Shown: positions 1-16,613 of the stretch, piece after piece
Layout: each line of letters begins with the position of its first letter
Numbering within the stretch: position 1 is the first letter of the stretch
Assembly (NCBI RefSeq): GCF_024105735.1
Contig: NZ_JAAAML010000001.1
Coordinates: forward strand, 1,373,809-1,437,808
Reading direction: 5' to 3'
From: Parahoeflea alexandrii
Lineage (GTDB): Bacteria; Pseudomonadota; Alphaproteobacteria; Rhizobiales; Rhizobiaceae
Length of the DNA: 64,000 bases
Notes under the pieces: model-generated
The model's database searches: none
Seen by the model: the letters and a program-made list of their open reading frames with translations, nothing else
What the model was told of the DNA's origin: nothing
Position numbers and translations under genes: made by a program

Positions 1-275
1 AACAGCTTGCAAAGAACCGGGCCCAGTGTGACGCGATCATCGCCGCTGCCGACGCGGCCGGTCTTGAGCTGGCCTCGCCGCGGGATGCAGCCAGGCGCGG
101 TGGCAGCGTCATGATCCGCTTGTCCGACGCGGACGCTGCGCAGGCGTTGCTTGCGCACCTGCGATCAGTCTCCGTGTTTGCAGACGCGCGCGGCGCCATT
201 CTGAGATGCTCGCCGGGCTTCCTGACGACCGATGACGGCATCGGACGGCTGACAGCTGCCCTGAGTCAGAGTTGA
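1..275 (+). CDS. PLP-dependent aminotransferase class V/kynureninase-like protein, C-terminal fragment
   Basis: An open frame enters from the left edge (codons in the frame starting at base 3) and stops at TGA 273-275, giving about 90 C-terminal residues. The segment ASPRDAARRGGSVMIRLS, followed by a helix and ILRCSPGFLTTDDGIGRL, lines up with the C-terminal small domain of the kynureninase encoded at 8158-9351, where [17 protein letters not shown] and [15 protein letters not shown] occupy the same places. It is therefore probably a class V PLP enzyme, perhaps a second kynureninase-like or a cysteine desulfurase-like protein. The catalytic lysine lies outside the window, so the substrate cannot be judged. 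Its position before the anthranilate genes suggests a link, but 274 bases with an operator-like site separate them. Confidence 0.65.
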   Translation, partial: QLAKNRAQCDAIIAAADAAGLELASPRDAARRGGSVMIRLSDADAAQALLAHLRSVSVFADARGAILRCSPGFLTTDDGIGRLTAALSQS

Positions 276-464
276 AGTGGCAGCAGGGCAAGGCGTCCGC
301 TCCATTCGGAGCGCATTGACCTGCCGAAAATTCCCGCTACCTGAATTAAGAGCATGTGGCCCGGCCGGGTCCCGTCCCCCGCTTTCTCGCGAGCGGCGGC
401 GGAGCCGGCAAAACGGGCGTCCGTTGTTGCGCACGGCCCAGTGAGCTCCCGACATCCCATTTTG

Positions 465-495
465 TTTCAGTCTTAAAATTTTATGCTTGAAATAT
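465..495. promoter_or_regulatory. Palindromic operator-like site before the anthraniloyl-CoA gene cluster
   Basis: Bases 465-492 form a symmetrical element: TTTCA (465-469), a central AAAATTTT (475-482) and TGAAA (488-492), all around one centre. The right part, CTTGAAATAT (486-495), recurs at 10227-10236 in the perfect palindrome before the cupin gene. Aligned over 20 bases, the two sites share 16. An AT-rich palindrome 55-85 bases before the first start codon fits a MarR-family operator. Assignment to the MarR protein encoded at 3605-4105 is inference. Confidence 0.5.
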
Positions 496-549
496 AATTC
501 TTCAGGCGTAGGATTGCTGTCAGTGAAAACCGGTCTGGAGGTGCGAAAA

Positions 550-2844
550 ATGAGAATTGCTTGTCTTGGTGGTGGTCCTGCCGGTCTCTATTTCGCGATC
601 TCGATGAAGCTGCGCGATCCTTCGCACGAGATTGTTGTCATCGAGCGCAACAAGCCTGATGACACGTTCGGCTGGGGGGTCGTGCTGTCCGACGAGACGC
701 TCGACAATCTGGCGGAGAATGATGCGGTCAGCGCGGAATCGATCCGGGCGCACTTTGCCTATTGGGATGACATCGCGGTTCTGTTCAAGGATACCAAGAC
801 GGTATCCACCGGTCACGGTTTTTGCGGAATCGGCCGCAAGCAACTGCTTCTGCTGCTTCAGGCGCGGGCCAGAGAACTGAATGTCGAGCTTCGCTTTGAG
901 ACCAATGTGGCCAGTGCCTCCGAATATGCCAAGGAGTTCGACCTGGTGGTGGCGTCGGATGGTTTGAACTCGCACACGCGCACCGAATTCGCCGACAAGT
1001 TCCAGCCCGAGATCGATGTGCGAAAGTGCCAGTTCGTCTGGCTGGGCACGCATCAGAAGTTCGATGATGCCTTCACCTTCATCTTCGAGGAAACCGACAA
1101 GGGATGGATCTGGGCGCATGCCTACCAGTTCGACGACGAGACCGCGACATTCATCGTCGAATGCACCGAGGAGACATTCCAGGCTTATGGCTTCGGCGAG
1201 ATGAGCCAGCAGGAAACGATAGCCACCTGCGAGGAGATCTTTGCGAAGCATCTTGGCGGCCACAGCCTGATGACCAATGCCAACCACATCCGCGGGTCGG
1301 CCTGGATCCGGTTCCCGCGGGTGCTGTGCGCGCGCTGGAGCCATGAAAACATCGTGCTGATGGGCGATGCTGCGGCAACGGCGCATTTTTCCATCGGGTC
1401 GGGCACCAAGCTGGCGCTGGAAAGCGCCATCGCGCTGGCCAATTACCTGCACTCCGAACCAACGCTGCAGAAGGCTTTCGACAAATACGAGGACGAGCGG
1501 CGACTGGAAGTGCTGCGGCTGCAGTCGGCGGCGCGCAACTCGATGGAGTGGTTCGAGGAAATCGAGCGCTATTTCCACCTCGATCCGGTGCAGTTCAACT
1601 ATTCGCTTCTGACCCGTTCGCAGCGCATCAGCCACGAAAACCTGCGCATGCGCGATGCGGAATGGCTGGAGGATGCCGAGCGCTGGTTCCAGACCCAGGC
1701 CGAGGTCTCCTCCCAGGCCCCGGTTCGGCGGCCGATGTTCGCACCCTACAAATTGCGCGACATGGAGCTCAAGAACCGGATCGTGGTGTCGCCGATGGCG
1801 CAGTACAAGGCCGTCGACGGATGCCCGACCGACTGGCACCTGGTTCACTACGGCGAGCGCGCCAAGGGCGGCGCAGGCCTGGTCTACACCGAGATGACCT
1901 GCGTATCGCCTGAAGGCCGGATCACGCCGGGCTGTCCCGGGCTTTATGCCCCGGAACATGAAGCAGCCTGGAAGCGGATCGCCGATTTCATCCATGCCGA
2001 AAGCGAAGCCAAGGTCTGCATGCAGATCGGCCATTCCGGGGCAAAGGGATCAACCCAGCTCGGCTGGGAAATCATGGATGCGCCGCTGAAGGAGGGCAAC
2101 TGGCCGCTGATGTCGGCCTCCGATGTTGCCTGGTCGTCCGACAATCAGGCACCCAAGGCGATGACCCGCGAGGACATGGATCAGGTGCGCGACCAGTTTG
2201 TCGCCGCCGCCGAAATGGCCGAGCGCGCCGGTTTCGACATGATCGAGCTGCACATGGCGCATGGCTATCTGCTGTCGTCCTTCATCACGCCGCTGACCAA
2301 CCGGCGTAGCGACGAATATGGCGGCAGCCTCGAGAACCGCATGCGCTATCCGCTGGAGGTCTATCACGCGGTGCGCGAAGCCTGGCCGCAGCACAAGCCG
2401 ATCTCCGTGCGTATCTCGGCCAGCGACTGGGTTGAGGGGGATGGCGTCACCCCGCAGGACGCGGTCGATATCGCCCGCATGCTCAAGGAAGCCGGCGTTG
2501 ACATCTGTGACGTTTCGGCGGGCCAGACCTCGAAGCTCGCAAGGCCGGTCTATGGACGCATGTTCCAGACACCTTTTGCCGACCGGATCCGCAATGAAGC
2601 GCAAATGGCGACCATGGCCGTTGGCAACATCTACGAGCCCGACCATGTGAACTCGATCCTGATGGCTGGACGTGCCGACCTGGTCTGCCTTGCCCGTCCG
2701 CATCTCTCCAATCCCTACTGGACGCTGCATGCGGCGAGCGCGCTTGGCGACCATGACGAGAAATGGCCTGATCCGTATCATCCCGGCCGCGACCAGATGT
2801 GGCGGCTGGCGGAACGCAACGACGTGATGCTCGGCAAGGTCTGA
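550..2844 (+). CDS. Anthraniloyl-CoA monooxygenase/reductase (FAD monooxygenase-OYE fusion)
   Basis: A two-domain flavoenzyme of 764 residues. The N-terminal half (about 1-370) is a class A FAD monooxygenase with GGGPAG at 7-12 and the FAD-binding [10 protein letters not shown] motif near 272. The C-terminal half (from about 395) is an Old Yellow Enzyme domain with [11 protein letters not shown] near 568 and the RRSDEYGGS motif. This fusion is diagnostic of 2-aminobenzoyl-CoA monooxygenase/reductase and the related salicylyl-CoA 5-hydroxylase. The known enzyme hydroxylates anthraniloyl-CoA at C5 and then reduces the ring, so it dearomatises without ring cleavage. The ATG at 550 is chosen because TCTGGAGG sits just upstream; the frame is open to 487 but without a better signal. 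It is first of a tight gene run, 2 bases before the SDR. Salicylyl-CoA is an alternative substrate, but linked kynU and kynA favour anthraniloyl-CoA. Confidence 0.85.
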
Positions 2845-2846
2845 CC

Positions 2847-3608
2847 ATGGCCGAGCTGATGGGACATCATGCGATCGTCACCGGTGCCGGATCGGGCGCC
2901 GGAGAGGCGATCGCGCTGGCGCTTGCGGGCAAGGGGGCGCGGGTCACCGCGATCGGCCGGCGGCTGGCGCCGCTTGAGGTGCTGGCGGCGCAGGATGACC
3001 GGATCATAGCGGTTTCCGCCGATGTGACGGATGCGGACGCCATGGCGGCCGCGATTGCCGAAGCCGTCGAGAAGAACGGGGCGCCGACGATTGTCATCGC
3101 CAATGCCGGGTCGGCTGAGAGCGCGCCGTTCCAGCGCACTGATGCGGCCTTGTTCCGTGCCACGCTGGATGTCAATTTGACCGGTGTTTTCAATACGTTT
3201 CAGGCGTCATTTGTGAAGATGAATCGGGCGCAGCCCGGCCGCTTGATCGCCATTGCCTCCACAGCCGGGTTGAAGGGCTATGCCTATGTCAGCGCCTATT
3301 GCGCGGCCAAGCACGGCGTTGTCGGCCTCGTCCGCAGCCTGGCGCAGGAGTTCGCCAGGACCGGCGTGACGGTCAATGCCATCTGTCCGGGTTTCACCGA
3401 GACGCCGATGTTGCATCGCTCAATTGACAACATTGTGGAAAAAACCGGACGATCGCGTGAGGAGGCGGAGGCGTCGCTGCGCGATGTCAATCCGCAGGGG
3501 CGGTTCATACAGCCGGAGGAAATCGCCGAGACGGTGTTGTGGCTCTGCAGTGATGCGGCGGCTTCCGTGACCGGTCAGGCAATCTCGCTATCGGGGGGAG
3601 AAACATGA
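2847..3608 (+). CDS. SDR family oxidoreductase (probable beta-oxidation-type hydroxyacyl-CoA dehydrogenase)
   Basis: A 253-residue classical short-chain dehydrogenase. The NAD(P)-binding VTGAGSGAG lies near residue 11, NAG near residue 87, and the active site shows Ser in IAIASTAG and the YCAAK catalytic pair in SAYCAAKHG. It starts 2 bases after the monooxygenase stop, and its TGA overlaps the MarR start (ATGA at 3605-3608), so it belongs to the same operon. In this context it may oxidise a hydroxyl or reduce an oxo group on the alicyclic CoA ester made by the monooxygenase/reductase. The exact step is inference; SDR sequence alone does not fix the substrate. Confidence 0.75.
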   Translation: MAELMGHHAIVTGAGSGAGEAIALALAGKGARVTAIGRRLAPLEVLAAQDDRIIAVSADVTDADAMAAAIAEAVEKNGAPTIVIANAGSAESAPFQRTDAALFRATLDVNLTGVFNTFQASFVKMNRAQPGRLIAIASTAGLKGYAYVSAYCAAKHGVVGLVRSLAQEFARTGVTVNAICPGFTETPMLHRSIDNIVEKTGRSREEAEASLRDVNPQGRFIQPEEIAETVLWLCSDAAASVTGQAISLSGGET

Positions 3609-4105
3609 GCGACAAACTGGCAAGCAGGTCGGGCATGGCCGACACCGGCATCAAGGACCCAGCGGCGTCAAAGGCGAGGCTGCGGCTCTGGCTGAAGCTG
3701 CTCAAGGCGACCAAGCATGTCGAGGCCGAGTTGCGCGAGAATTTCCGCACCGGCTTTGATACGACGCTGCCGCGTTTCGACGTGATGGCGGCGCTGTACC
3801 GCGTCGAGCAGGGCCTGAAAATGAGCGAACTGTCGAGCGTGCTCAGGGTTTCGAACGGCAATGTCACGGGTATTGTTGACCGGCTGGTCGATGACGGAAT
3901 CCTGGTCCGGATACCGGTGGACAATGACCGGCGCGCGACAACCGTGCGGCTGACCAAGGCGGGCCGAGAGCAGTTCGAAGCGATGGCGGCAAGCCACGAA
4001 ACCTGGATCGACAGCCTTCTCGACGGCATCAATGTCTCCGAGGTGCAGCATCTGTCCGATCAGCTCGAATGCATCGCCCGCAAGAGTACCAAGGGAGAGG
4101 ACTGA
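3605..4105 (+). CDS. MarR family transcriptional regulator of the cluster
   Basis: A 166-residue winged-helix protein. The recognition region is [19 protein letters not shown], followed by a wing with [16 protein letters not shown]; the flanking helices are those of MarR dimers. Being embedded in the operon between the SDR (ATGA overlap) and the enoyl-CoA hydratase (4-base gap, AAGGGAGAGG ribosome site), it is likely the local switch. Known MarR regulators of aryl-CoA pathways, such as BadR and CouR, repress until an aryl-CoA thioester binds. By analogy it may respond to anthraniloyl-CoA and bind the palindromes at 465-495 and 10217-10236. Neither effector nor site is shown by the sequence itself. 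Confidence 0.85.
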
Positions 4106-4109
4106 ACCC

Positions 4110-4913
4110 ATGCCGACTGACGCCCCCGTCAATTTCCGACTGACCCTGACCGACGGCATTGCCGAGGTTTCGCTGGACCGTCCGGAGAAGAAGAACCCGC
4201 TGACCTTTGAAAGCTACGCCGAACTGCGCGACTGGTTTCGCGGTCTGGTCTACCGTGATGATGTCAAGGTGGTGATCTTCGGATCCAACGGCGGCAATTT
4301 CTGCTCGGGCGGAGACGTGTTCGAGATCATCGGTCCGCTTCTCGACAAGGACATGAAGGGTCTGATGGAGTTCACCCGCATGACCGGTGACCTGGTCAAG
4401 GCCATCATCGGCTGCGGCAAGCCCGTGATTGCGGCTGTCGACGGGGTCTGCGCCGGGGCCGGTGCGATCATCGCCATGTGCTCCGATCTGCGCATGGCAA
4501 CACCGGAAGCCAAGACCGCATTCCTGTTCAACCGGGTTGGCCTTGCGGGTTGCGATATGGGCGCTTGCGCGATCCTGCCGCGGATCATCGGCCAGGGCAG
4601 GGCTGCCGATCTTCTTTACACCGGACGCGCGATGAGCGCCGAGGAAGGCGAACGCTGGGGCTTTTACAATCGTGTCGTGGCCGCGTCCGACATCGAGGAC
4701 GAGGCGCGAAAGATGGCAAAACGGATCGCCGACGGGCCGACATTCGCCAACATGATGACCAAGACCATGCTGGCGCAGGAATGGAACATGGGCATCGAGC
4801 AGGCGATCGAGGCCGAGGCACAGGCTCAGGCGATCTGCATGCAGACCCAGGATTTCCGCCGCGCCTATGAAGCCTTTGCCGCCAAACAGAAACCCGTGTT
4901 CGAGGGCAACTGA
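4110..4913 (+). CDS. Enoyl-CoA hydratase/isomerase family protein
   Basis: A 267-residue crotonase-fold protein. It has [15 protein letters not shown] at the N-terminus, the oxyanion-hole segment FCSGGD (about residue 65-70) and a second segment near [19 protein letters not shown], then [16 protein letters not shown]. Crotonase members hydrate enoyl-CoAs or open alicyclic rings of oxo-acyl-CoAs. In this operon it would act on the cyclohexene-type CoA ester after dearomatisation, as hydratase or ring-opening hydrolase. The ATG at 4110 has a strong AAGGGAGAGG 10 bases upstream. Its stop overlaps the following start (TGATG at 4911-4915), pointing to coupled translation with the acyl-CoA dehydrogenase. 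Confidence 0.8.
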
Positions 4914-6079
4914 TGTCTGACCGCAGTTTTCTCCAATGGCCGTTCTTCGATGAGGCCCATCGTGACTTGGCCGATCGCGTCGATGCGTGGGCCAGGAAGG
5001 AACTGGCCGATCTCGACCATTCCAATGTCGACGAGACCTGCAAGGCGCTGGTCAAGGCGCTGGGCGATGCCGGCTGGCTCAAGCTCTCCGCGGTGGATCC
5101 GGAAGACGAGAGGTCGAAGATCGATGTGCGCAGCCTGTGCATCCTGCGCGAGACGCTGGCCCGGCACGACGGGCTGGCCGATTTCGCCTTTGCCATGCAG
5201 GGGCTTGGCACCGGCTGCATTTCGCTGTTCGGCAGGCCGGACCAGAAGACCGAGTGGCTGACCAAGACCCGTGCGGGCAAGGCGCTGTCCGCCTTTGCAC
5301 TGTCGGAACCGGCATCGGGATCGGATGTCGCCAACATGGCAATGACGGCGGTCCGCGACGGCGACGACTATGTTCTCAACGGCGAGAAAACCTGGATTTC
5401 CAACGGCGGCATCGCCGATGTCTACTGCGTGTTCGCACGTACCGGAGAGGCGCCGGGCGCCAAGGGGCTGTCCGTGTTCATCGTGCCTGCCGACACGCCG
5501 GGGCTCGAGATCGCCGAACGGCTGGAAGTGGTGGCGCCGCATCCGCTGGCGCGGCTCGCCTTCAACGATTGCCGGATCCCGGCATCGGCGATGATCGGCA
5601 ATCCGGGCGACGGGTTCCGCATCGCCATGTCTGTGCTCGACGTGTTCCGCTCCACTGTTGCCGCGGCCGCTCTGGGCTTTGCCCGCCGGGCGCTCGATGA
5701 AAGCCTCGACCGCGTCAGCGAACGCGAGCTGTTCGGCGCGCCGATGAGCGATCTGCAGATGGTGCAGGGCCACATCGCCGACATGGCGCTCGATGTCGAT
5801 GCCTCGGCACTGCTGGTCTACCGGGCCGCCTGGCTTAAGGACCAGGGTGCGCCGCGCGTCAGCCGCGAGGCGGCGATGGCAAAGCTTTACGCCACTGATC
5901 ATGCCCAGGACGTGATCGACAAGGCGGTGCAGCTGCATGGCGGCGACGGCGTGCGCAAGGGCCACATCGTCGAGAGCCTCTATCGCGAGATCCGGGCGCT
6001 GAGGATCTATGAGGGCGCGTCAGACGTTCAGAAGGTCGTGATCGCGCGGCAGACACTGGCGAATTCCAAGGGAGTGTAA
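4913..6079 (+). CDS. Acyl-CoA dehydrogenase family protein
   Basis: A full-length 388-residue flavoprotein. It contains FALSEPASGSDVANMAM in the middle domain, the WISNGG segment after it, ELFGAPMSDLQMVQ, and the C-terminal HGGDGV and RIYEGASDVQ. The glutamate in YEGAS is the usual catalytic base of short-chain acyl-CoA dehydrogenases. The enzyme removes two hydrogens from an acyl-CoA and passes electrons to ETF. Here it probably oxidises the alicyclic or ring-opened CoA ester downstream of anthraniloyl-CoA. It overlaps the hydratase by one base and is followed by the CoA ligase after one base. Confidence 0.85.
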   Translation: MSDRSFLQWPFFDEAHRDLADRVDAWARKELADLDHSNVDETCKALVKALGDAGWLKLSAVDPEDERSKIDVRSLCILRETLARHDGLADFAFAMQGLGTGCISLFGRPDQKTEWLTKTRAGKALSAFALSEPASGSDVANMAMTAVRDGDDYVLNGEKTWISNGGIADVYCVFARTGEAPGAKGLSVFIVPADTPGLEIAERLEVVAPHPLARLAFNDCRIPASAMIGNPGDGFRIAMSVLDVFRSTVAAAALGFARRALDESLDRVSERELFGAPMSDLQMVQGHIADMALDVDASALLVYRAAWLKDQGAPRVSREAAMAKLYATDHAQDVIDKAVQLHGGDGVRKGHIVESLYREIRALRIYEGASDVQKVVIARQTLANSKGV

Positions 6080-6080
6080 C

Positions 6081-7706
6081 GTGCTGGGACCATCGGGCCA
6101 TATCGACAGCTTCACACGCGACAACCTGCCGCCGGCCGATCAATGGCCTCAGATGCGGCTTGACGGGTTCGAGTATCCGGAATGGCTCAATTGCGGCTAC
6201 GAGCTGACAGATGCGATGGTGGCCAAGGGGTTCGGCGATCACACCGCGCTGATCGGCAATGGCCGGATCAGGACCTACAAGGAACTGACCGACTGGACCA
6301 ACCGCATCGCCCATGTGCTGGTCGAGGATTACGGCGTCAAGCCGGGCAACCGGGTTCTCATCCGCTCGGCCAACAATCCGGCAATGGTGGCCGTCTGGCT
6401 GGCGGCGACGAAAGCGGGTGCCGTGGTCGTCAACACCATGCCGATGCTGCGCGCTGTCGAACTCTCCAAGATAGCCGACAAGGCGGAGATCTCGCTGGCG
6501 CTGTGCGACACGCGGCTGATGGACGAGATGGTGGCCTGCGCCAAGGAAAACCGGTTCCTCACCAAGGTGGTGGGCTTTGACGGCACCGCAAATCACGATG
6601 CGGAGCTCGACCGGCTGGCGCTGTCCAAGCCGGTGCGCTTCGAGACGGTGAAGACCGGCCGCGACGACGTGGCGCTGCTTGGCTTTACCTCCGGCACGAC
6701 CGGCATGCCGAAGGCGACGATGCATTTTCATCGCGACATGCTGATCATCGCCGACGGCTACGCCAGGGAAGTGCTTGGCGTCACGCCCGAGGATGTGTTT
6801 ATTGGTTCGCCGCCGCTGGCGTTTACGTTTGGTCTTGGCGGGCTGGCGGTGTTCCCGCTGCGCTTCGGCGCGGCTGCGGCCCTGCTCGAGCAGGCGACGC
6901 CGGCGAACATGGTGGAGATCATCCAGGCCCATAGGGCAACTGTCTGTTTCACCGCGCCGACCGCCTATCGCGCCATGCTGGCGGCGATGGAGGAGGGGGC
7001 GGACCTGTCCTCGTTGCGCGCAGCCGTTTCCGCCGGAGAGACGTTGCCGGGGCCAGTCTATGAGCAATGGATGGCCAAGACCGGCAAGCCGATGCTTGAC
7101 GGGATTGGTGCCACCGAGATGCTGCATATCTTCATCTCCAACCGGTTCGAGAACTCGCAACCTGCCTGCACCGGGCTTCCGGTCACGGGTTACGAGGCGC
7201 GGATCGTCGATGGCGACATGAACGAAGTCCCACGCGGCGAGGTTGGACGGCTGGCGGTGCGCGGGCCGACCGGCTGCCGCTACCTTGCCGATCCGGAGCA
7301 GCAGCAGAAATATGTCCGCGACGGATGGAACCTCACCGGGGATTCGTTCACACAGGATGCCGACGGCTTCTTCCATTTCGCCGCGCGCAGTGACGACATG
7401 ATCATTTCCGCCGGTTACAACATTGCCGGCCCGGAGGTCGAGGCGGCACTTCTGGCACATGCGGATGTCGCCGAGTGCGCGGTGATCGGCGTCGCCGATG
7501 AGGCGAGGGGGCAGATCGTGCAGGCGCATGTCGTGCTCAAGGCCGGTGTCGCCGCCGACGAGGTAACCACCAAGCGGTTGCAGGATCACGTGAAGGCCGT
7601 CATCGCCCCTTACAAGTATCCCCGGTCGGTCGTCTTCGTCGACGCGCTGCCCAAGACCCAGACCGGCAAGATCCAGCGCTTCCGGCTTCGCACCGGCGAC
7701 GCCTGA
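6081..7706 (+). CDS. Aryl-CoA ligase, probable 2-aminobenzoate (anthranilate)-CoA ligase
   Basis: A 541-residue AMP-forming ligase of the benzoate-CoA ligase group. It shows the P-loop LGFTSGTTGMPKATMHFH, DGIGATEMLHIFISNR (adenine/aryl pocket region), the hinge FAARSDDMIISAGYNI and the C-terminal catalytic lysine in LPKTQTGKIQRFRL. It activates an aromatic acid with ATP and CoA. Co-location with the monooxygenase/reductase and kynureninase points to anthranilate as substrate; benzoate or salicylate remain possible. The start is GTG at 6081, one base after the dehydrogenase stop, with AAGGGAG upstream; no ATG fits better. The following RidA gene begins after 36 bases. Confidence 0.8.
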   Translation: MLGPSGHIDSFTRDNLPPADQWPQMRLDGFEYPEWLNCGYELTDAMVAKGFGDHTALIGNGRIRTYKELTDWTNRIAHVLVEDYGVKPGNRVLIRSANNPAMVAVWLAATKAGAVVVNTMPMLRAVELSKIADKAEISLALCDTRLMDEMVACAKENRFLTKVVGFDGTANHDAELDRLALSKPVRFETVKTGRDDVALLGFTSGTTGMPKATMHFHRDMLIIADGYAREVLGVTPEDVFIGSPPLAFTFGLGGLAVFPLRFGAAAALLEQATPANMVEIIQAHRATVCFTAPTAYRAMLAAMEEGADLSSLRAAVSAGETLPGPVYEQWMAKTGKPMLDGIGATEMLHIFISNRFENSQPACTGLPVTGYEARIVDGDMNEVPRGEVGRLAVRGPTGCRYLADPEQQQKYVRDGWNLTGDSFTQDADGFFHFAARSDDMIISAGYNIAGPEVEAALLAHADVAECAVIGVADEARGQIVQAHVVLKAGVAADEVTTKRLQDHVKAVIAPYKYPRSVVFVDALPKTQTGKIQRFRLRTGDA

Positions 7707-7742
7707 GCCCAGTTTCCCAGGACATAAACGAGGATTTTCAAA

Positions 7743-8153
7743 ATGATAGAAGCCATCAATCCGCCGGATTGGGAAAAGCCGAAGGGCTATGCGAACGGCA
7801 TGCTGGTCGACGGCTCCCGGCTGTACACAGGCGGCCAGATTGGCTGGAACAAGGATCAGGTGTTCGAACACCACGATTTCGTCGGCCAGCTCGAGCAGAC
7901 GCTGGCCAATATTGTTGCGATCGTTCACGCGGCCGGAGGTGAAGTCACGGATATCGTGCGGTTGACCTGGTTCATCACCGACAAGAAGGAATACATGGCG
8001 CGGCAGAAGGATGTCGGTGCCGCCTACCGGAAGGTCATGGGCCGGCATTTTCCGTCGATGTCGGTGATCGTCGTTGCCGGGCTGATCGAGGACGAGGCGA
8101 TGATCGAGATCGAGGCGACAGCGGAAATCGGCAAATCGGCAAAGGACGCGTGA
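7743..8153 (+). CDS. RidA/YjgF family protein, possible enamine/imine deaminase of the pathway
   Basis: A 136-residue chorismate-mutase-like fold protein with GGQIGWNKD, the helix QLEQTLANIVAIVHAAGGE and the C-terminal VIVVAGL and EIEATAEIG segments. Classical RidA hydrolyses 2-aminoacrylate-type enamines and relies on an Arg in the motif V-A-R-L. Here the residue at that place is Gly (V-A-G-L), so it belongs to a divergent Rid subgroup. It lies between the ligase and kynU, with an AACGAGG ribosome site. The dearomatised anthraniloyl-CoA product is itself an enamine, so release of ammonia by this protein is an attractive inference. Confidence 0.75.
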   Translation: MIEAINPPDWEKPKGYANGMLVDGSRLYTGGQIGWNKDQVFEHHDFVGQLEQTLANIVAIVHAAGGEVTDIVRLTWFITDKKEYMARQKDVGAAYRKVMGRHFPSMSVIVVAGLIEDEAMIEIEATAEIGKSAKDA

Positions 8154-8157
8154 GACC

Positions 8158-9351: not shown

Positions 9352-10190
9352 GCGAGCCCCGGGACTACGATCCTTCCGCCGAGGGTGCGGAGATGAATTT
9401 CGACGGGCGCATGTCCTATGGCGATTATCTCTGTCTCGACAAGGTCCTCTCGGCGCAGAATCCGCGAACCGATGCGCATGACGAGATGCTGTTCATCGTT
9501 CAGCACCAGACATCGGAATTGTGGATGCGGCTGGCGATCCACGAGATCGTCGCGGCGCGGGCGGCAATCCGCGCCGATCAGCTGCAGCCGGCGATGAAGA
9601 CCCTGGCGCGGGTGTCGCGGATATTCGAACAACTCAATTCGGCCTGGGACGTGCTCAGGACCATGACGCCGAGCGATTACACCCATTTCCGGCGCAAGCT
9701 GGGGCAATCTTCGGGTTTCCAGTCCTATCAGTACCGGATGATCGAATTCGCGCTCGGCAACCGCAATCACGCGATGATGCGGCCGCATGCGCATGTTCCC
9801 GGTGTGTCTGCAAAACTCGAGGCGGAGCTCAGCGAACCGAGCCTGTACGACGAGGCGATCCGGCTCGCGGCACGGCGTGGCATCGCCATGCCCGAAGAGG
9901 TGCTTTCCCGCGACGTGCGGCAGACCCACGCGCTGCATGACGGGGTGACCGAGGGTTGGAAAATGATCTACGAGGCGCCGGAAAAATATTGGGCGCTCTA
10001 CGAGGTTGCCGAGAAGCTGGTGGATCTCGAGGACTATTTCCGGCGCTGGCGCTTCAACCATGTGACCACCGTGGAACGGGTGATCGGGCTCAAGCGCGGC
10101 ACCGGCGGCACCGGCGGTACGAGCTATCTCAAGCGGATGCTTGATGTCGAGCTTTTCCCCGAACTCTGGCGTGTGCGGACCGAGTTGTAG
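9348..10190 (+). CDS. kynA: Tryptophan 2,3-dioxygenase
   Basis: A 280-residue haem dioxygenase that opens the indole ring of L-tryptophan to N-formylkynurenine. The family signatures are present: [30 protein letters not shown] with the substrate-contact His at 53, [13 protein letters not shown], and the haem ligand His at 238 in [11 protein letters not shown], followed by a glycine-rich loop. It starts inside the end of kynU. It is last in the first gene run; the following 143 bases carry a palindrome and a promoter-like pair. The formamidase needed between this enzyme and kynureninase is not encoded in the window. Confidence 0.95.
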
Positions 10191-10216: not shown

Positions 10217-10236
10217 ATATTTCAGCCTTGAAATAT
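10217..10236. promoter_or_regulatory. Perfect palindromic operator-like site before the cupin gene
   Basis: ATATTTCA (10217-10224), GCCT, TGAAATAT (10229-10236) is a perfect 8-4-8 inverted repeat. It matches 16 of 20 aligned bases at 476-495, before the monooxygenase gene. It sits about 20 bases upstream of a promoter-like pair. Two related palindromes in front of the two halves of the island suggest one regulator, probably the MarR protein at 3605-4105. Confidence 0.5.
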
Positions 10237-10333: not shown

Positions 10334-11425
10334 TTGGATACGCGCGCAGAAATCAGGTTGCCGACTTCGGAACTCAGGGACGACCTGCCATTCTACACCA
10401 AGACGCTGAAGATGCGTCTCGACATGATCTATCCGGCGGATGACCCGGAAGTGGCGGTTCTTTCGGGTCATGGATTGAGGATCCGGATCGAGAAGGGCGC
10501 GCCGGAAGCGCCGGGAACGTTGCGCATCCTGACCGATGATCCGGACGGTTTTGCCGATGGCAAGCGCGAACTGGTCGCGCCGAACGGCACCCGTATCGAG
10601 ATCGACGAACTCAATCCGCCGATGGTTTTGCCACGGACCGAACACGCTTTCGTGGTTCGCAGGCTGGCCGACCAGGCGCCCTGGATTATAGGCCGTGCCG
10701 GGATGGAATACCGCGACCTGATCCCGACCCGGCTCGGCGGCGCGATGATCGCCTCGCATATCCGGGTACCTGACGGCCCGGTGCCCGACATGGTGCATTT
10801 CCACAAGGTGGGTTTCCAGCTGATCTTCTGCATTAATGGCTGGGTCGACGTGCTTTATGAGGATCAGGGCGGAACCCGCCGGCTGCATGCCGGCGACTGC
10901 TTCATCCAGCCACCGCAGATCCGCCACAAGGTGCTGCATGCGGCGGACGGGATAGAGGTGATCGAGATCGGCGTTCCGGCCGAACATGTCACCGAAATCG
11001 ATCACACGATGGAACTGCCGACACCGCATGAGCGGCCGGACCGGGAATGGGACGGCCAACGCTTCGTCCACAGCCTTGTCAAGGACGGCATCTTCACACC
11101 GTTCCGGATTCCCGGTTTTGAAGCCCGCGACACGACCATCAACGAGAACACCAAGGGTGTCGCGTCGGTCATGGTGGCGCGGCCTTCGGGAGTGCATTCG
11201 CCGGTCTGGACCCGGCACGAGGGCGACATCCTGTTCAATTTTGTCATGTCGGGAACCATGGTGCTGGAAGGCGAGGGCAAGGAGCCTTATCGTCTTGAAA
11301 AAGGCGATGCTTTTGTCATTCCACCGCGGATGGCAACGCGCTACAGTGACCCGAGCGGCGATCTGCAACTGCTGGAAGTCTCGCTTCCCGGATCGTTTGA
11401 AACACAGGTCGTTGAAGAAATCTGA
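10334..11425 (+). CDS. Double-cupin protein with an N-terminal glyoxalase (VOC)-like segment
   Basis: A 363-residue protein starting at TTG 10334 behind GGGAGAG. Residues 1-75 look like half of a vicinal-oxygen-chelate domain (LPTSELRDDLPFYTKTLKMR, then GHGLRIRIE). A first cupin domain (about 155-215) has MVHFHKVGFQLIF and GDCFIQPPQIRHKV, with several His positions able to hold a metal. A second cupin (about 290-350) has WTRHEGD and GDAFVIPPRMATRY, where the second-motif His is replaced. Many double cupins are dioxygenases or sugar/aryl-acid isomerases; the substrate here is unknown. It lies between kynA and the ABC importer, so a role in the aromatic pathway is likely but unproven. Confidence 0.6.
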   Translation: MDTRAEIRLPTSELRDDLPFYTKTLKMRLDMIYPADDPEVAVLSGHGLRIRIEKGAPEAPGTLRILTDDPDGFADGKRELVAPNGTRIEIDELNPPMVLPRTEHAFVVRRLADQAPWIIGRAGMEYRDLIPTRLGGAMIASHIRVPDGPVPDMVHFHKVGFQLIFCINGWVDVLYEDQGGTRRLHAGDCFIQPPQIRHKVLHAADGIEVIEIGVPAEHVTEIDHTMELPTPHERPDREWDGQRFVHSLVKDGIFTPFRIPGFEARDTTINENTKGVASVMVARPSGVHSPVWTRHEGDILFNFVMSGTMVLEGEGKEPYRLEKGDAFVIPPRMATRYSDPSGDLQLLEVSLPGSFETQVVEEI

Positions 11426-11493: not shown

Positions 11494-12696
11494 ATGAAAA
11501 AAACAACATATGCATTGGCGATTGCGGCGTTGCTCGCGTCGAGCGCGTCAACTCTCGCAGCCGACACCAAAGTCGGAGTCCTGATGGACATCACCGGTCC
11601 GATCGCGAGCTTCATTCCGCCGCTGCAGAACGCGGCCAATCTGGCTTTCAGCCAGGTCAACGAACAGGGCGGACTGCTCGACGGTCAGGCCGTGGCGGTT
11701 TATGGCGACACCACCGGCTCCTCGCAGGGCGCGGTCGATGCCGCCGGCAAGCTGATCAACGTCGAGAATGTGCCGATCATCATGGGTGCGCTGATGTCGG
11801 GCACGACGATCGCCTCGGCCGAAGCCGCAGGCATTCCGGCCGGCGTGGTGCAGATTTCGCCAACTGCCACTTCGCCGGCGATGACCGGCATCCAGGACAA
11901 TGACCTGCTCTACCGCATCGTGCCGTCCGACAACTTCCAGGGTCAGGTGCTGGCCAAGATGGTGATGGATGAAGGTCTGACCAAGGTCGCCGTAACCTTC
12001 GTCAACAATGACTACGGCGTCGGCATCGGCGGCACCTTTGTCGAGGCCTACAAGGCGCTCGGCGGCGAAGTCGTGGCCGAAGTCAAGCATGAGGAAAAGA
12101 AGAACTCCTACCGTTCCGAACTGGCAACGCTGTCGAAAGCCGGCGGCGACGCGCTGGTGGTGGTCGCCTATGCCGGTGATTCCGGCGGGAAGATCGTCAA
12201 GCAGGCGATCGAAGGCGGGTTGTTCACAAGGTTCATCGGCACCGACGGTCTTCGCGATGAAGCCCTGATCTCCGATATTGGCGCGGAAGCGCTGGCGACC
12301 TCGTTCTTCTCGGCGCCGACCTCTCCTGCCGACAACCCGAACCAGGCCAAGTTGCACGAACTCTACACCGCGGCCTACAACGAGCCAGCCGACAAGCCGT
12401 TTGTCGACCAGACCTATGATGCCACCTTCCTGGCGCTGCTCGCCGTCGAGCAGGCCGGTTCCGCCGACCGCACAAAGATGGCCGAAGCACTGCGCGCCGT
12501 CGCCTCGGCTCCAGGCGAAAAAGTTGGTCCTGGTGAGTGGGCCAAGGCCAAGGCACTAATCGCCGAAGGCAAGGACATCGATTACGATGGTGCCGGCGGC
12601 AGCTACGACTTCGACGAAAACGGCGATGTGGCCGGATTTATCGGCAAGTTCGTCGTTGACGGCACTGTCTATAAGCAGGTTGCCATCGTCGAGTGA
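11494..12696 (+). CDS. Branched-chain-amino-acid-type ABC transporter substrate-binding protein
   Basis: A 400-residue periplasmic binding protein of the LivK type. It has a Sec signal peptide (KK followed by a hydrophobic stretch, cleavage near STLAAD at about residue 22), then KVGVLMDITGPIASFIPP and an inter-lobe region with VTFVNNDYGVG, as in receptor-type Peripla_BP_6 domains. It captures the ligand for the permease and ATPase genes that follow. Liv-type importers beside aromatic clusters often carry aromatic acids rather than leucine, so anthranilate, kynurenine or tryptophan are candidates. The ATG has a GGGAGC site. A strong hairpin separates it from the ATPase gene. Confidence 0.85.
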   Translation: MKKTTYALAIAALLASSASTLAADTKVGVLMDITGPIASFIPPLQNAANLAFSQVNEQGGLLDGQAVAVYGDTTGSSQGAVDAAGKLINVENVPIIMGALMSGTTIASAEAAGIPAGVVQISPTATSPAMTGIQDNDLLYRIVPSDNFQGQVLAKMVMDEGLTKVAVTFVNNDYGVGIGGTFVEAYKALGGEVVAEVKHEEKKNSYRSELATLSKAGGDALVVVAYAGDSGGKIVKQAIEGGLFTRFIGTDGLRDEALISDIGAEALATSFFSAPTSPADNPNQAKLHELYTAAYNEPADKPFVDQTYDATFLALLAVEQAGSADRTKMAEALRAVASAPGEKVGPGEWAKAKALIAEGKDIDYDGAGGSYDFDENGDVAGFIGKFVVDGTVYKQVAIVE

Positions 12697-12752: not shown

Positions 12753-12839
12753 ATAAACAAAGCGCGAGCCATCCGTCGGGCAAGGACCTGCTCGGAAAGG
12801 CTCGCCGGCGGTTGAACAAAACCGCACTATGGGGCGCAA

Positions 12840-13613
12840 ATGATATCAGTTGAACATGTGAAGGTGAGTTACGGCGGCCCCAATGTCGTCGATGACGTCA
12901 GCTTCGACATACCGTCCGGGCGTATCACCGGGCTTATCGGGCCGAATGGCGCCGGCAAGACCACGATGTTCAATGCGATTGCGGGGCATGTGGGACTGGC
13001 CGGCGGTCGTATCCTGCTCGAGGGCAAGGACATCACCGGGCTCAAGCCGCATCAGCGCGCGGCGCGCGGTCTGGCGAGGACCTTCCAGATCCCGCATGAA
13101 TTCTCTCAACTGACGGTGATCGAGAACTTCATGGCCGCCGCCGCCACCCCAATCGGCGAGAACGTGTTCAACGTCATTTTCCGGCGCGGCCGGTTTGCCG
13201 CCGAAGAAGAGGCGACATACCGCGCGGCACGCGACATGGTGACCTTTCTCGAGATCGACCATGTCAAGGACGAGAAGGCCGGCAACCTCTCGGGCGGCCA
13301 GAAGAAACTGCTGGAACTCGGCCGGGCGCTGATGCGCAAGCCCAAGATCATCCTGCTCGACGAGATCGGCGCCGGCATCAACCGCACCCTGCTGGCCAAG
13401 ATTTCCGACAAGATCCTGCTCTTGAACAAGGAGCAGGGGCTGACCTTCTGCCTGATCGAGCACGATCTCGATTATGTCTCGAAACTTTGCGACGAGGTCA
13501 TCGTCATGGCGCAGGGCACGCTTCTGACCCGTGGCTCGGTCGATGATGTGCGCCAGGATGCACGTGTCATCGAAGCCTATTTCGGTGGCGGAAAATACGA
13601 GGCTCAGTCATGA
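12840..13613 (+). CDS. livG: ABC transporter ATP-binding protein, LivG type
   Basis: A 257-residue ATPase with Walker A GLIGPNGAGKTTMFNAI, Q-loop region ARTFQIPHEF, signature LSGGQKKLLELGRAL, Walker B IILLDEIGAGIN and a switch His in LIEHDL. The C-terminal extension VIEAYFGGG is typical of LivG. The usual Pro after the catalytic Glu is Ile here, a mild oddity that keeps D and E. It energises uptake through the LivH/LivM pair. Its TGA overlaps the livF ATG (ATGA at 13610-13613). Confidence 0.88.
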   Translation: MISVEHVKVSYGGPNVVDDVSFDIPSGRITGLIGPNGAGKTTMFNAIAGHVGLAGGRILLEGKDITGLKPHQRAARGLARTFQIPHEFSQLTVIENFMAAAATPIGENVFNVIFRRGRFAAEEEATYRAARDMVTFLEIDHVKDEKAGNLSGGQKKLLELGRALMRKPKIILLDEIGAGINRTLLAKISDKILLLNKEQGLTFCLIEHDLDYVSKLCDEVIVMAQGTLLTRGSVDDVRQDARVIEAYFGGGKYEAQS

Positions 13614-14329
13614 GCGCTTTGCTGTCGGTTGCAGGGCTTACTGCCGGCTATGGCGGTGTGCCGATCATCGAGGGGGTCAATCTCGATGTGGCCGAACACG
13701 AGATCTCCGTCATCATCGGGCCGAACGGTGCCGGCAAGTCGACACTGCTCAAGACCATCTTCGCCCTGACCGCACGTTCGGAGGGCGAAATCAGCTTTGC
13801 CGGCAAGGAGATCACCGGTCTGAGGACGGCGCAGTTGGTGCCATTGGGCATTTCCATGGTGCCGCAGAGCCGCAACGTGTTTCCGACGCTCACCGTCGAC
13901 GAGAACCTCGATGTCGGCACCTATGCCGCGCCGCCAAAGGACAAGGAAAAGGTGCGCGAGAACGTGCTGTCGCTGTTTCCCGACCTCAGGGGCAAGCTTG
14001 ACCAGGCGGCGGGTGAACTCTCGGGTGGCCAGCGGCAGATGGTGGCGATGGGCCGGGCGCTGATGAGCGAGCCGAAGCTGCTGCTGCTCGACGAGCCGAC
14101 CGCGGGTCTTTCGCCGGCCTATCTCGAGATCATCTTCGATCTGCTGCTCGACATCCGCAAGCGCGGCGTGACCATCCTGATGGTCGAGCAGAACGCCAAG
14201 CAGGCGCTCAGGATCGCCGACAATGGCCATGTGCTGGTCAGCGGCAAGAATTTCGTTTCAGGAACGGGGGAGGCGCTGCTCAACGACGATGCGGTGCGGC
14301 GCTCCTTCCTCGGGGGTGCAGCAGCGTGA
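13610..14329 (+). CDS. livF: ABC transporter ATP-binding protein, LivF type
   Basis: A 239-residue ATPase with Walker A IIGPNGAGKSTLLKTIF, SMVPQSRNVFPTLTVDENL, signature LSGGQRQMVAMGRALM, Walker B LLLLDEPTAGLSP and ILMVEQNAKQAL. This short form without C-terminal additions is LivF, partner of LivG. It overlaps livG by 4 bases and livH by 4 bases (GTGA at 14326-14329), so the transporter genes form one coupled unit. Confidence 0.9.
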   Translation: MSALLSVAGLTAGYGGVPIIEGVNLDVAEHEISVIIGPNGAGKSTLLKTIFALTARSEGEISFAGKEITGLRTAQLVPLGISMVPQSRNVFPTLTVDENLDVGTYAAPPKDKEKVRENVLSLFPDLRGKLDQAAGELSGGQRQMVAMGRALMSEPKLLLLDEPTAGLSPAYLEIIFDLLLDIRKRGVTILMVEQNAKQALRIADNGHVLVSGKNFVSGTGEALLNDDAVRRSFLGGAAA

Positions 14330-15216
14330 TCGACTTTATCAACCTCTATCTGGTTCCGGGACTGACCATCGGCAGCGTCTATGCGCTTGGCGCGGTCGGC
14401 ATCTCGATGATCTTCGGGATTTTACGGTTTGCCCATTTCGCCCATGGCGACCTGATGACCATCGGCGGCTACGGCGTGCTGACCGCGGTCTGGTTCATTC
14501 CGCTGCATCCGCTGCTCTTGTTGCCGGTCGGCATGGCGCTGGCCATCGGGGCGGCGCTGGCGGTGGATGAGTTCTTCTACAAGCCGCTGAGAAAGCTGCC
14601 GACCATCTACACGGTGATCGCCTCCTTCGGTGTGGCACTGATCTTCCGCTCGTTGGCGCAGCTGTTCTGGAGTTCCGGCAACCAGGTGTTCGTTTCCGGC
14701 GTTCGGCCGCCAATGGTGTTCTTCGACACGTTCAGGATTTCGGAACTGCATCTGCAGGTTATCATCCTGACACTGATCATCGCCGTTGCGCTGCACTTCT
14801 TCCTGACCCGGTCGAAGCTTGGCCGGGCCATGCGCGCGGTTTCCGACGAGCCGGAACTGGCAGCCGTTGCAGGGCTTGATACCGAGCGCGTGGTGCGCTG
14901 GACCTGGGTGATCGGCGCCGCACTTGCCGCAACCGCGGGCGTGTTTGCCGGGATGGATACCTCGATGCATCCGAATCTCGGCTGGAACCTGCTGCTGGCG
15001 ATGTTCGCCGCGGCCGTGCTCGGCGGCATCGGCAAGCCGATGGGCGCGATTGCCGGCGGGCTGATCATCGGCATTGCCGAGGAAACCGCGACATTTACCT
15101 GGCTCAGCGACGAGCCGCTGATCTCGCCTTCCTACAAATCCGCGGTCGCCTTCTTCATCATGGTGGCGCTTTTGCTGTTCCGGCCGCAGGGCCTGTTCAA
15201 GGGGAGGCTTCTGTAA
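14326..15216 (+). CDS. livH: Branched-chain-type ABC transporter permease, LivH type
   Basis: A 296-residue inner-membrane permease with about eight hydrophobic helices. It has GLTIGSVYALGAVGISMIFG and FAHFAHGDLMTIGGY near the N-terminus, the LivH hallmarks, and the cytoplasmic coupling region SKLGRAMRAVSDEPELAAVAGLD. The start is GTG at 14326 within the end of livF. It pairs with LivM to form the channel. Confidence 0.88.
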   Translation: MIDFINLYLVPGLTIGSVYALGAVGISMIFGILRFAHFAHGDLMTIGGYGVLTAVWFIPLHPLLLLPVGMALAIGAALAVDEFFYKPLRKLPTIYTVIASFGVALIFRSLAQLFWSSGNQVFVSGVRPPMVFFDTFRISELHLQVIILTLIIAVALHFFLTRSKLGRAMRAVSDEPELAAVAGLDTERVVRWTWVIGAALAATAGVFAGMDTSMHPNLGWNLLLAMFAAAVLGGIGKPMGAIAGGLIIGIAEETATFTWLSDEPLISPSYKSAVAFFIMVALLLFRPQGLFKGRLL

Positions 15217-16160
15217 TGGAACTCACCGGCCTTTTCTTCTACCTGGTCAGCGTGCTGATCGCCGGCGGCATCTATGCCGTGCTCTGTCTCGCGCTCAATG
15301 TGCAATGGGGCATGGGTGGTCTGTTCAATGCCGGCATCGCCGGGTTCTTCGCGGTCGGCGCCTATACTTCGGCGATCGTCACTACGGCTGTCTCCACCAA
15401 GCATCTGGGTGGTTTCGAGCTGCCGATCCCGTTCGGACTTGTGGCGGCGATGATCGTCGCCGGGGTGACCGGCTGGGTGGTGGCCAAGATCTGCGTTCGG
15501 CTGAAGAGCGATTACCTGGCGATGGCCTCGGTCGGCATCGCCGAGATCCTGCGGCTGGTGATCGTCAACGAATCCTGGCTGACAAACGGCAGCCTCGGCA
15601 TTGCCGGGGTGCCGCGTCCGTTCGGCGATCTGGTGCAGGGCAGGGAGGCCGATCTTCTCTATCTGGCGATGGTGTGGCTCTGCGTGCTCGCCGTCTACAT
15701 CCTGTGCCAGAGGCTTTACGTCAGTCCCTGGGGGCGGACCTTGCGGGCGATCCGCGACAATGAGGATTCGGCGCGCGCCGCGGGCAAGGATGTCGACTGG
15801 TTCCGGTTGCAGACCTTCGTCATCGGTTGCGCCATCATGGGCCTCGCCGGCGCCCTGTCGGCACATTACTTCAAGTTCCTGTCACCGTCGGCAACCGAGC
15901 CGCTGCTGGTGACGTTCCTGGTCTGGGTGATGCTGATGGCCGGAGGATCCGGCAACAACAAGGGCGCCATCGTTGGTGCGCTTGCGATCTGGTTCATCTG
16001 GTCGGCGACCGAGATCATCACCAGCCGCTTGCCGCCGGAATGGATTACGCGCTCATCCTATATCCGCATGCTGCTGGTCGGCCTGCTCTTGCAGTTCGTG
16101 CTGCAGAAGTTCCGCTCCGGGCTGATCCCGGAGAAATCGCCGAAAATCAGATCCGATTGA
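15216..16160 (+). CDS. livM: Branched-chain-type ABC transporter permease, LivM type
   Basis: A 314-residue permease with about nine hydrophobic helices. It has GIYAVLCLALNVQWGMGGLFN near the start, FFAVGAYTSAIV, and the coupling loop PWGRTLRAIRDNEDSARAAG of LivM proteins. Its ATG overlaps the livH stop by one base (TAATG). It is the last gene of the importer and is followed by a perfect 9-pair hairpin and the convergent thioesterase gene. Confidence 0.88.
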   Translation: MELTGLFFYLVSVLIAGGIYAVLCLALNVQWGMGGLFNAGIAGFFAVGAYTSAIVTTAVSTKHLGGFELPIPFGLVAAMIVAGVTGWVVAKICVRLKSDYLAMASVGIAEILRLVIVNESWLTNGSLGIAGVPRPFGDLVQGREADLLYLAMVWLCVLAVYILCQRLYVSPWGRTLRAIRDNEDSARAAGKDVDWFRLQTFVIGCAIMGLAGALSAHYFKFLSPSATEPLLVTFLVWVMLMAGGSGNNKGAIVGALAIWFIWSATEIITSRLPPEWITRSSYIRMLLVGLLLQFVLQKFRSGLIPEKSPKIRSD

Positions 16161-16178
16161 CCTGAACTGCCGGCACAG

Positions 16179-16200
16179 TCCCGCAGATCACTCTGCGGGA
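16179..16200. terminator. Hairpin between convergent livM and thioesterase genes
   Basis: TCCCGCAGA (16179-16187), TCAC, TCTGCGGGA (16192-16200) is a perfect 9-pair stem whose loop contains the thioesterase stop codon. No U-run is present on either strand, so it may stop transcription weakly from both sides or protect 3' ends. Confidence 0.5.
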
Positions 16201-16613
16201 TCGGCTGGCAGGAACGAGAGCAGCTTGGCGCGGACGTCGTCCGGCCAGGGCATGGAGGTGTGTTCGTCGAGATGGCTCGCCGCCAGCACCTGCTTGCTCG
16301 TCCAGCGCTCCTCCTCGCCACACAGCACGGTGTGCTCCACGGTCATTGATGATCTGCCGACCTTGGTGACAGTCAGCTCGAAGGTCAGCTTGTCGCCGAA
16401 AAAAGAGGGCTTGGAGAAATCGCAGCTCAGATGCACCGTCGGCGTGCCCCAGCGTTCCTTCCAGATGATTTCGTGCCAGGGGTAGCCGATCGCCGCCCAG
16501 AACTCCTCGTTCACGCCATTGAGCAGGTTGAGATAGGACGGATAATAAGCGGTGCCGGAAATGTCGCAGTCGCCGAAATGCAGCATGCGATCTGTGGTAA
16601 AGCTGACAGTCAT
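16188..16613 (-). CDS. Acyl-CoA thioesterase, 4-hydroxybenzoyl-CoA thioesterase type
   Basis: A 141-residue single hotdog protein. The N-terminal FGDCDISGTAYYPSYLNLLN matches the D-x-x-G-x-x-Y-x-P active-site motif of 4-hydroxybenzoyl-CoA thioesterases, followed by EFWAAIGYPWHEI. The start at 16613 is chosen for AGGGGG a few bases upstream; the frame is open to 16700 without a better signal. It hydrolyses acyl- or aryl-CoA. Convergent to the importer and at the edge of the island, it may free CoA when aryl-CoA builds up. The link to the pathway is by position only. Confidence 0.75.
   Translation of the reverse strand: MTVSFTTDRMLHFGDCDISGTAYYPSYLNLLNGVNEEFWAAIGYPWHEIIWKERWGTPTVHLSCDFSKPSFFGDKLTFELTVTKVGRSSMTVEHTVLCGEEERWTSKQVLAASHLDEHTSMPWPDDVRAKLLSFLPADPAE

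Follow-up and report, generated by a model that had tools for sequence, protein, structure and literature searches.

Does the gene island at the start of a 64,000-nucleotide stretch of the Parahoeflea alexandrii genome (the window, positions 1 to 64,000) degrade tryptophan through coenzyme A (CoA) esters, and is tryptophan the only compound that feeds it? The island carries genes for tryptophan 2,3-dioxygenase (KynA), kynureninase (KynU) and a monooxygenase fused to an Old Yellow Enzyme (OYE) domain, which is of the 2-aminobenzoyl-CoA monooxygenase/reductase (ACMR) type. Its gene content makes it highly probable that the island serves the catabolism of tryptophan and anthranilate via the aerobic 2-aminobenzoyl-CoA (anthraniloyl-CoA) or 'hybrid' route. 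The core of the locus is an Azoarcus-type 2-aminobenzoyl-CoA cluster plus kyn genes, an arrangement that is known and common. An isatin hydrolase and an oxidoreductase pair are encoded upstream of the window, and we see about an even chance that two interchangeable entrances lead to anthraniloyl-CoA as a common hub, the first through the CoA ligase and the second through an iadA/iadB-type oxidoreductase that would convert isatinate and CoA to anthraniloyl-CoA by oxidative decarboxylation. New at this locus would be the co-occurrence of this second entrance and a shared control element, while the conversion of auxin to 2-aminobenzoyl-CoA is itself known from anaerobic metabolism.

Tryptophan genes in a probable 2-aminobenzoyl-CoA operon

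The genes from ACMR to KynA, including one for a MarR regulator, form a single tight operon (550–10190) with spacings of 2, -4, 4, -1, 1, 36, 4 and -4 nt (Table 1). A bicupin gene starts 143 nt behind KynA and is followed by a complete LIV-type importer, which ends at 16160, and by a thioesterase gene on the opposite strand. Profile searches recovered every gene named in the initial annotation, with the catabolic and importer genes on the plus strand, and bore out the overlapping single-strand run, the full importer behind it and the CoA-thioesterase at the edge of the island; the MarR and bicupin genes were absent from its list. A scan for promoters and terminators was uninformative (6 promoter-like sites versus 3.0 expected, 10 terminator-like sites versus 11.6 expected). 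Positions marked L003 refer to a longer stretch that includes the upstream flank; subtracting 17808 gives the window coordinate.

Table 1. Features of the island, with window positions and supporting matches.
Feature	Position	Strand	Evidence
Class-V pyridoxal phosphate (PLP) enzyme, 3' end, distantly kynureninase-like	1..275 (whole gene L003:16701-18083, begins upstream of window)	+	Pfam Aminotran_5 1.1e-16, KYNU_C 27.6 bits; PDB 1qz9 kynureninase 2.9e-15
Operator-like palindrome before ACMR, ATTTTATGCTTGAAAT, 1 mismatch to ATTTCANNNNTGAAAT	478..493		window search
ACMR, FAD monooxygenase-OYE fusion	550..2844	+	NF006101 1315 bits (cut-off 1078); Pfam FAD_binding_3, Oxidored_FMN
Short-chain dehydrogenase/reductase (SDR)	2847..3608	+	Pfam adh_short 1.2e-50
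MarR-family regulator, likely reader of the palindrome	3605..4105	+	Pfam MarR_2/MarR
Crotonase, PRK08258 family	4110..4913	+	NF006107 473 bits (cut-off 330)
Acyl-CoA dehydrogenase	4913..6079	+	Pfam Acyl-CoA_dh domains
Aryl-CoA ligase, probably anthranilate-CoA ligase	6081..7706	+	TIGR02262 367.7 bits (cut-off 375.25); best PDB match 4wv3
RidA-family protein, enamine/imine deaminase type	7743..8153	+	Pfam Ribonuc_L-PSP 6.8e-19
KynU, kynureninase	8158..9351	+	TIGR01814 276.9 bits (cut-off 246.4); PDB 1qz9
KynA, tryptophan 2,3-dioxygenase	9348..10190	+	TIGR03036 419.4 bits (cut-off 390.7); PDB 2nox
Operator-like palindrome before cupin/importer unit, exact, ATTTCAGCCTTGAAAT	10219..10234		window search
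Bicupin, TTG start	10334..11425	+	Pfam Cupin_2
LIV-type substrate-binding protein	11494..12696	+	Pfam Peripla_BP_6
ATP-binding cassette (ABC) ATPase 1	12840..13613	+	Pfam ABC_tran
ABC ATPase 2	13610..14329	+	Pfam ABC_tran
LIV permease 1	14326..15216	+	Pfam BPD_transp_2
LIV permease 2	15216..16160	+	Pfam BPD_transp_2
4HBT acyl-CoA thioesterase, true start probably internal	16188..16700	-	Pfam 4HBT_2 1.6e-14

KynA and KynU, which together with KynB make up the anthranilate branch of the kynurenine pathway, both score above their family cut-offs; KynU aligns over its full length with the solved bacterial kynureninase 1qz9 (419 bits), and KynA is close to the solved bacterial tryptophan dioxygenase 2nox (364 bits). 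ACMR, an enzyme expected of abm clusters, is a full-length fusion above its cut-off, and the usual companions are all there, namely the β-oxidation-type enzymes, a MarR regulator and a RidA-like protein.

The individual reactions in this organism are predicted from these gene families, the operon structure, and the conserved gene order and palindrome described below. KynA would convert tryptophan to N-formylkynurenine, the formyl group would be removed by an unlinked AFMID-like hydrolase or by spontaneous hydrolysis, and KynU would release anthranilate and alanine. After activation of anthranilate by the ligase, ACMR would hydroxylate and reduce anthraniloyl-CoA to 2-amino-5-oxocyclohex-1-enecarbonyl-CoA, the amino group of which is probably taken off by RidA, and the crotonase, the SDR and the acyl-CoA dehydrogenase may open the ring and lead the product into β-oxidation. 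Excerpts of a study on anthranilate-grown Arthrobacter Rue61a report anthraniloyl-CoA together with CoA esters of C7H7NO3 and C7H8O4 acids, for which its authors suggested hydroxyanthraniloyl-CoA and perhaps cyclohexanedione-carboxyl-CoA, respectively (PMC3534580). The C7H8O4 ester would be consistent with loss of the amino group through a RidA-type enzyme.

To see how common the arrangement is, ACMR was searched in 151 genomes of the same family and 398 genomes of the phylum, two samples that share at least nine genomes and both include P. alexandrii itself. Matches to NF006101 were accepted from 818 bits in the family (counting a fragment at a contig edge in G089) and from 968 bits in the phylum sample; these thresholds admit matches under the curated cut-off, above which 80 of the 151 family genomes and 64 of the 398 phylum genomes remain. 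In the family, ACMR was found in 89 genomes, KynA in 73, the ligase in 74 and the oxidoreductase in 50, where ligase means at least 71% identity (eight rows of at most 58% identity were excluded). All 74 ligase genomes contain ACMR, as do 69 of the 73 KynA genomes. In 40 of these 69, KynA and ACMR are no more than 30 kb apart, and the same holds for KynA and the ligase in 49 of the 68 genomes that carry both; distances were measured within one contig, so that broken assemblies depress the linkage counts. Since the genomes are related to one another, Fisher values for such associations overstate their independence.

Neighbourhoods were compared for 139 of 159 ACMR genes. Sixty-one of them belong to the same clade (ACMR at least 69% identical to the copy in the window), 49 with at least 6 kb on each side; among these 49, the ligase occurs in 47, KynA in 33 and KynU in 26. 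The order ACMR-SDR-MarR-crotonase-dehydrogenase-ligase is kept in most same-clade loci, and the closest loci with a genus name, from Hoeflea, have the same order from ACMR to the thioesterase (L198, L199, L201-L205, L217). On plasmid pCSC3H3 of Thalassospira marina, ACMR, SDR, MarR, crotonase, dehydrogenase, ligase, kynU and kynA likewise form one run; there, the thioesterase and RidA come after it, genes for an α/β hydrolase and a 3-hydroxyacyl-CoA dehydrogenase diverge upstream, and no LIV importer was found in the stretch examined. The gene order kept in Hoeflea and, from ACMR to KynA, in T. marina argues against a chance arrangement. In the public annotation of Ruegeria pomeroyi, the dioxygenase gene adjoins an α/β hydrolase and ACMR. 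In Paracoccus denitrificans, a LIV importer accompanies the cluster, and kyn genes were not found within the stretch examined. As a side observation, seven ACMR loci of a second clade (L060, L065, L072, L074, L075, L082, L083) have a KynU of about 47–52% identity nearby, with neither KynA nor the ligase in the stretch; six of the corresponding genomes have KynA at a distance of 11–19 kb from ACMR.

The initial annotation had regarded an anthraniloyl-CoA locus that begins at tryptophan as unusual. This novelty does not hold, because KynA is often close to ACMR in the family, KynA and KynU are common in same-clade neighbourhoods and the arrangement is already publicly annotated in T. marina. The tryptophan part thus represents a little-studied route that is widespread in alphaproteobacteria. 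Its model, the 2-aminobenzoate (abm) gene clusters of Azoarcus evansii, was reportedly described by Schuhle et al. in 2001. Those clusters reportedly share with the present locus the ACMR fusion, a CoA ligase, three β-oxidation-type enzymes, MarR, a RidA-like protein and an ABC binding protein; unlike them, the P. alexandrii operon includes KynU and KynA and is accompanied by a complete LIV importer, the bicupin and the thioesterase. A summary of the abm pathway is available in excerpt (PMC4539516). For Cupriavidus metallidurans, an excerpted gene list names kyn genes as peripheral and abm genes as central in one strain (PMC8879955). Among the open-licence matches listed, this list came closest to connecting kyn genes with ACMR in print; no excerpted text contained that connection, or one from isatinate to anthraniloyl-CoA, although this is not proof of absence.

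A possible second entrance through isatinate

Upstream of the window, at a distance of about 6 to 14.5 kb, are genes for two CrtO-like flavoproteins with an isatin hydrolase gene between them, a MarR protein and an oxidoreductase pair (L003:3320-4903 and 4907-7054, minus strand); an Opp-type importer separates them from the window. Isatin hydrolases share the metal-binding motif HxGTHxDxPxH. The P. alexandrii protein keeps it as EHSGTHFDAPHH and matches the structure 4j0n with 475 bits over 261 residues. One member of the pair belongs to the indolepyruvate oxidoreductase family (NF006179, 677 bits, cut-off 348), and its partner matches IOR_alpha with 279.5 bits, under the cut-off of 650.9. Both putative entrances are thus encoded by the window island and its upstream flank. 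Through the ligase, anthranilate would be supplied from tryptophan by KynA, an AFMID-like formamidase and KynU. Through the oxidoreductase, auxin-type indoles would be converted to isatin, hydrolysed to isatinate by isatin hydrolase and turned into anthraniloyl-CoA, bypassing the ATP-dependent activation. The two CrtO/CrtI-like flavoproteins (L003:10090-11664, plus strand; L003:7561-9138, minus strand) flank the isatin hydrolase gene and are kept in Roseibium loci. They are candidates for making isatin.

Co-occurrence speaks for the proposed second entrance. In the family, the oxidoreductase is confined to ACMR genomes (50/50, versus none of the 62 genomes without ACMR), and in the phylum sample 27 of the 29 oxidoreductase genomes have ACMR, compared to 44 of the 369 others; outside the own family the figure is 15 of 17 (leaving out three additional rows, from G169 and G463, does not alter the genome counts). 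At least one of the two entrance enzymes was found in 88 of the 89 ACMR genomes of the family: 38 have only the ligase, 36 both and 14 only the oxidoreductase, and one (G137) has neither. Five of the 14 (G016, G018, G020, G027, G037) have a ligase homologue of 53–58% identity and nine have none at E 1e-130; the homologue in G137 is 58% identical. The pair is present in 14 of the 139 neighbourhoods. The ligase is missing from twelve of these and adjoins kyn genes in L162 and L163, the remaining two. L120 and L121 carry the pair on the far side of RidA and a thioesterase homologue that is 80% identical to the one in the window and likewise opposite in strand; ligase and kyn genes were not found in these stretches, nor ligase or KynA genome-wide at the thresholds used.

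The strongest competing explanation is that isatin hydrolase and the oxidoreductase form a separate auxin module, connected to the island by location alone, with the oxidoreductase acting on indolepyruvate outside the ACMR route. We regard this as the less probable account, although a substantial one. It agrees with the NCBI family name and with the distance between the genes: only 23 of the 50 family genomes have the oxidoreductase and ACMR no more than 30 kb apart on one contig, and two genomes of the phylum sample hold the pair without ACMR. Nine Roseibium-type loci contain the pair with no ACMR in the stretch to which the search was confined; seven of them combine it with isatin hydrolase, bicupin and LIV importer, and two are split (L208, L210), with the pair but no isatin hydrolase in the stretch. 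Roseibium aggregatum IAM 12614 (L212) combines isatin hydrolase (76% identity), the oxidoreductase pair (76% and 65%), the PLP enzyme, the bicupin and the LIV importer in one stretch as here, but unlike here ACMR, ligase and kyn genes were not found in the stretch examined. According to excerpts of PMC12633357, the formation of anthranilate is restored by a set of nine Variovorax genes (iadC to iadK2) that does not include the oxidoreductase pair. Two further points count against a second entrance: isatin hydrolase (at least 40% identity) is within the stretch in only 4 of the 14 pair-bearing neighbourhoods, and the source of isatin is not explained by the 15 open reading frames searched upstream, where neither the Rieske oxygenase iadDE nor the reductase iadC was found, the rest of the genome lying outside that search. 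A separate auxin module is harder to reconcile with the confinement of the oxidoreductase to ACMR genomes and with the pair-bearing ACMR neighbourhoods, which either lack the ligase or have it next to kyn genes.

The second entrance also has to be seen in relation to known auxin pathways. As described in excerpts for Variovorax and Bradyrhizobium, the iad auxin loci have in common with the present one a MarR regulator, an oxidoreductase pair (here of putative iadA/iadB type) and a nearby kynurenine-formamidase-like amidohydrolase, and differ in the Rieske oxygenase, which was not found among the 15 open reading frames searched upstream of the window (PMC9613470, PMC12633357). In Bradyrhizobium, an indolepyruvate oxidoreductase pair was induced 7.6- and 30.7-fold by indole-3-acetate (excerpt of PMC3788728), and iadA, iadB and iadE mutants of Pseudomonas LY1 lost growth on auxin (excerpt of PMC8383072), a result not used as evidence here. 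The anaerobic iaa pathway of Aromatoleum likewise reaches 2-aminobenzoyl-CoA, so that the convergence of auxin breakdown on this compound has a precedent; by the excerpted account in PMC9613470, from whose description rather than from sequences we set it apart, it uses other genes. If the second entrance exists, a reaction could be assigned to the oxidoreductase genes that mark the iad loci, and aerobic auxin and tryptophan degradation would converge on one coenzyme A intermediate. Taken together, the results render testable the role of this pair, the replacement of KynB in a large bacterial family and the regulator of the 2-aminobenzoyl-CoA route.

A shared palindrome and the importer unit

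A palindrome, ATTTCAAGCTTGAAAT, is kept before ACMR and also stands ahead of the cupin/importer unit. Exact copies of ATTTCANNNNTGAAAT occur only twice in the 4.9-Mb genome, once before the cupin (Table 1) and once inside a gene. The palindrome was found first in the window and tested afterwards in other loci, with mononucleotide shuffles as cross-locus controls. With at most two mismatches allowed, the pattern ATTTNANNCTTGAAAT occurs no more than 250 nt upstream of ACMR in 57 of 61 loci of the same clade (about 0.2 expected from the shuffles), in 40 of 61 of the second clade (about 0.2 expected) and in 2 of 13 that are more distant (about 0 expected). Across the 139 loci (2.6 Mb), 81 sites have at most one mismatch to ATTTCANNNNTGAAAT, versus a single site in one shuffled copy. 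Of these, 59 precede ACMR, three MarR (in two loci, both at MarR-ligase), two the cupin, two SDR, and one each KynA, the binding protein (L107) and RidA; 11 are elsewhere and two inside known genes, one site being counted twice. In the window alone, a search with two mismatches gave 5 sites, compared to 1.37 expected from dinucleotide shuffles. The MarR protein of the operon probably reads the palindrome as a repressor and would thereby govern the operon and the cupin/importer unit jointly.

The presence of the palindrome before both ACMR and the cupin connects the cupin/importer unit with the operon. By comparison, we consider it unlikely that cupin and LIV importer lie outside the tryptophan island. 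In favour of such a separation, the bicupin, which is 74–83% identical in Rhodobacterales, sits between genes of malic-enzyme-like and nucleoside-salvage-like type (names read from the sequences) in each of three loci examined there, so it need not serve the pathway; it also travels with the PLP enzyme and the importer in Roseibium stretches that lack kyn genes. Against it stand the nine Hoeflea loci examined: a version of the palindrome precedes the cupin in all nine and ACMR in all seven whose upstream DNA could be read, some versions having two or three changes as judged by eye and one lying 208 nt upstream. The site at the binding protein in L107 also speaks against it, as does a LIV-binding-protein-like protein (recognised by eye) that 20 of 41 KynA loci have no more than 6 kb from KynA.

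No NCBIfam family matched the bicupin at 0.001. It was considered as the missing formamidase or as a kyn-specific enzyme and rejected, given its occurrence in only 15 of the 151 family genomes at E 1e-30 and its nucleoside-salvage-like neighbours in the three Rhodobacterales loci. Separately, Roseibium, Oricola and other loci have the class-V PLP enzyme gene next to the bicupin-importer unit in divergent orientation.

Substrate of the fusion and the formamidase step

Several points weigh against a tryptophan and anthranilate pathway. The ligase falls short of its family cut-off, and benzoate-CoA ligases score nearly as well as the anthranilate enzyme: the ranking of solved structures is led by anthranilate-CoA ligase 4wv3 (277.8 bits), followed by benzoate-CoA ligase 2v7b (263.9 bits), and because these scores are close the substrate preference is not decided by sequence. 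The NCBI family of ACMR is named salicylyl-CoA 5-hydroxylase/oxidoreductase, and we infer the steps after ACMR, including ring opening by the crotonase, from the enzyme families. No formamidase gene was found in the locus, and the Rhodobacterales neighbours of the bicupin belong among these points as well. Anthraniloyl-CoA is nevertheless the more plausible ACMR substrate than salicylyl-CoA because the kyn genes are part of the operon. A rival view, in which the fusion acts on salicylyl-CoA, the cluster degrades salicylate or hydroxybenzoate and the kyn genes only travel along, would suit the name used by NCBIfam and by most annotated plasmid matches and a ligase of the benzoate-CoA ligase kind, but is very improbable in view of the co-occurrence and linkage of ACMR with KynA in the family, the RidA gene within the operon, as expected for an amino-bearing product, and the anthranilate-CoA ligase as top solved match, by a small margin.

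The pathway read from the island by the initial annotation is supported for the conversion of tryptophan to anthraniloyl-CoA, given the homology of KynA, KynU and the ligase and the full-length ACMR, and is incomplete at the formamidase. Canonical KynB was not found among the four PF04199 proteins of the genome, of which the best reaches 54 bits with TIGR03035 (cut-off 223), and no protein above this cut-off was found in any of the 151 family genomes. These four proteins, the nearest of which is the isatin hydrolase, were therefore rejected as KynB. A survey of KynA neighbours, made with no preselected candidate, revealed an α/β hydrolase with the motif HGGYW. Kynurenine formamidases of the AFMID type have the motif HGGxW. 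The hydrolase was found in 67 of the 73 KynA genomes compared to 26 of the 78 family genomes without KynA, excluding matches below 44% identity; of the six KynA genomes scored as negative, G034, G082 and G132 have a match of 36–38%. It lies within 15 kb of KynA in 36 of 67 family genomes with both and 144–289 nt from ACMR in 22 of 74 genomes with both. The copy in P. alexandrii (C1:514128-514937) is 58% identical, contains HGGYW and GHSAGG and is far from the island. A relative matches the solved kynurenine formamidase 4e11, which we take to be an insect enzyme, at 5e-16, and scores above the cut-off of the hormone-sensitive-lipase family in NCBIfam. The AFMID-like hydrolase is thus a likely substitute for KynB.

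Elsewhere in the window, a flavin mononucleotide (FMN) riboswitch (RF00050, 106 bits) at 18041–18170 reaches the listed start of a lumazine-synthase-family gene (18165–18686). A large penicillin-amidase-family protein (PF01804, 692 bits) is encoded at 36205–38781. The 2-kb bin with the lowest GC content, 0.523, is at 40001–42000, where the open reading frames 40721–41440 and 41654–42526 had no Pfam match at 1e-8.

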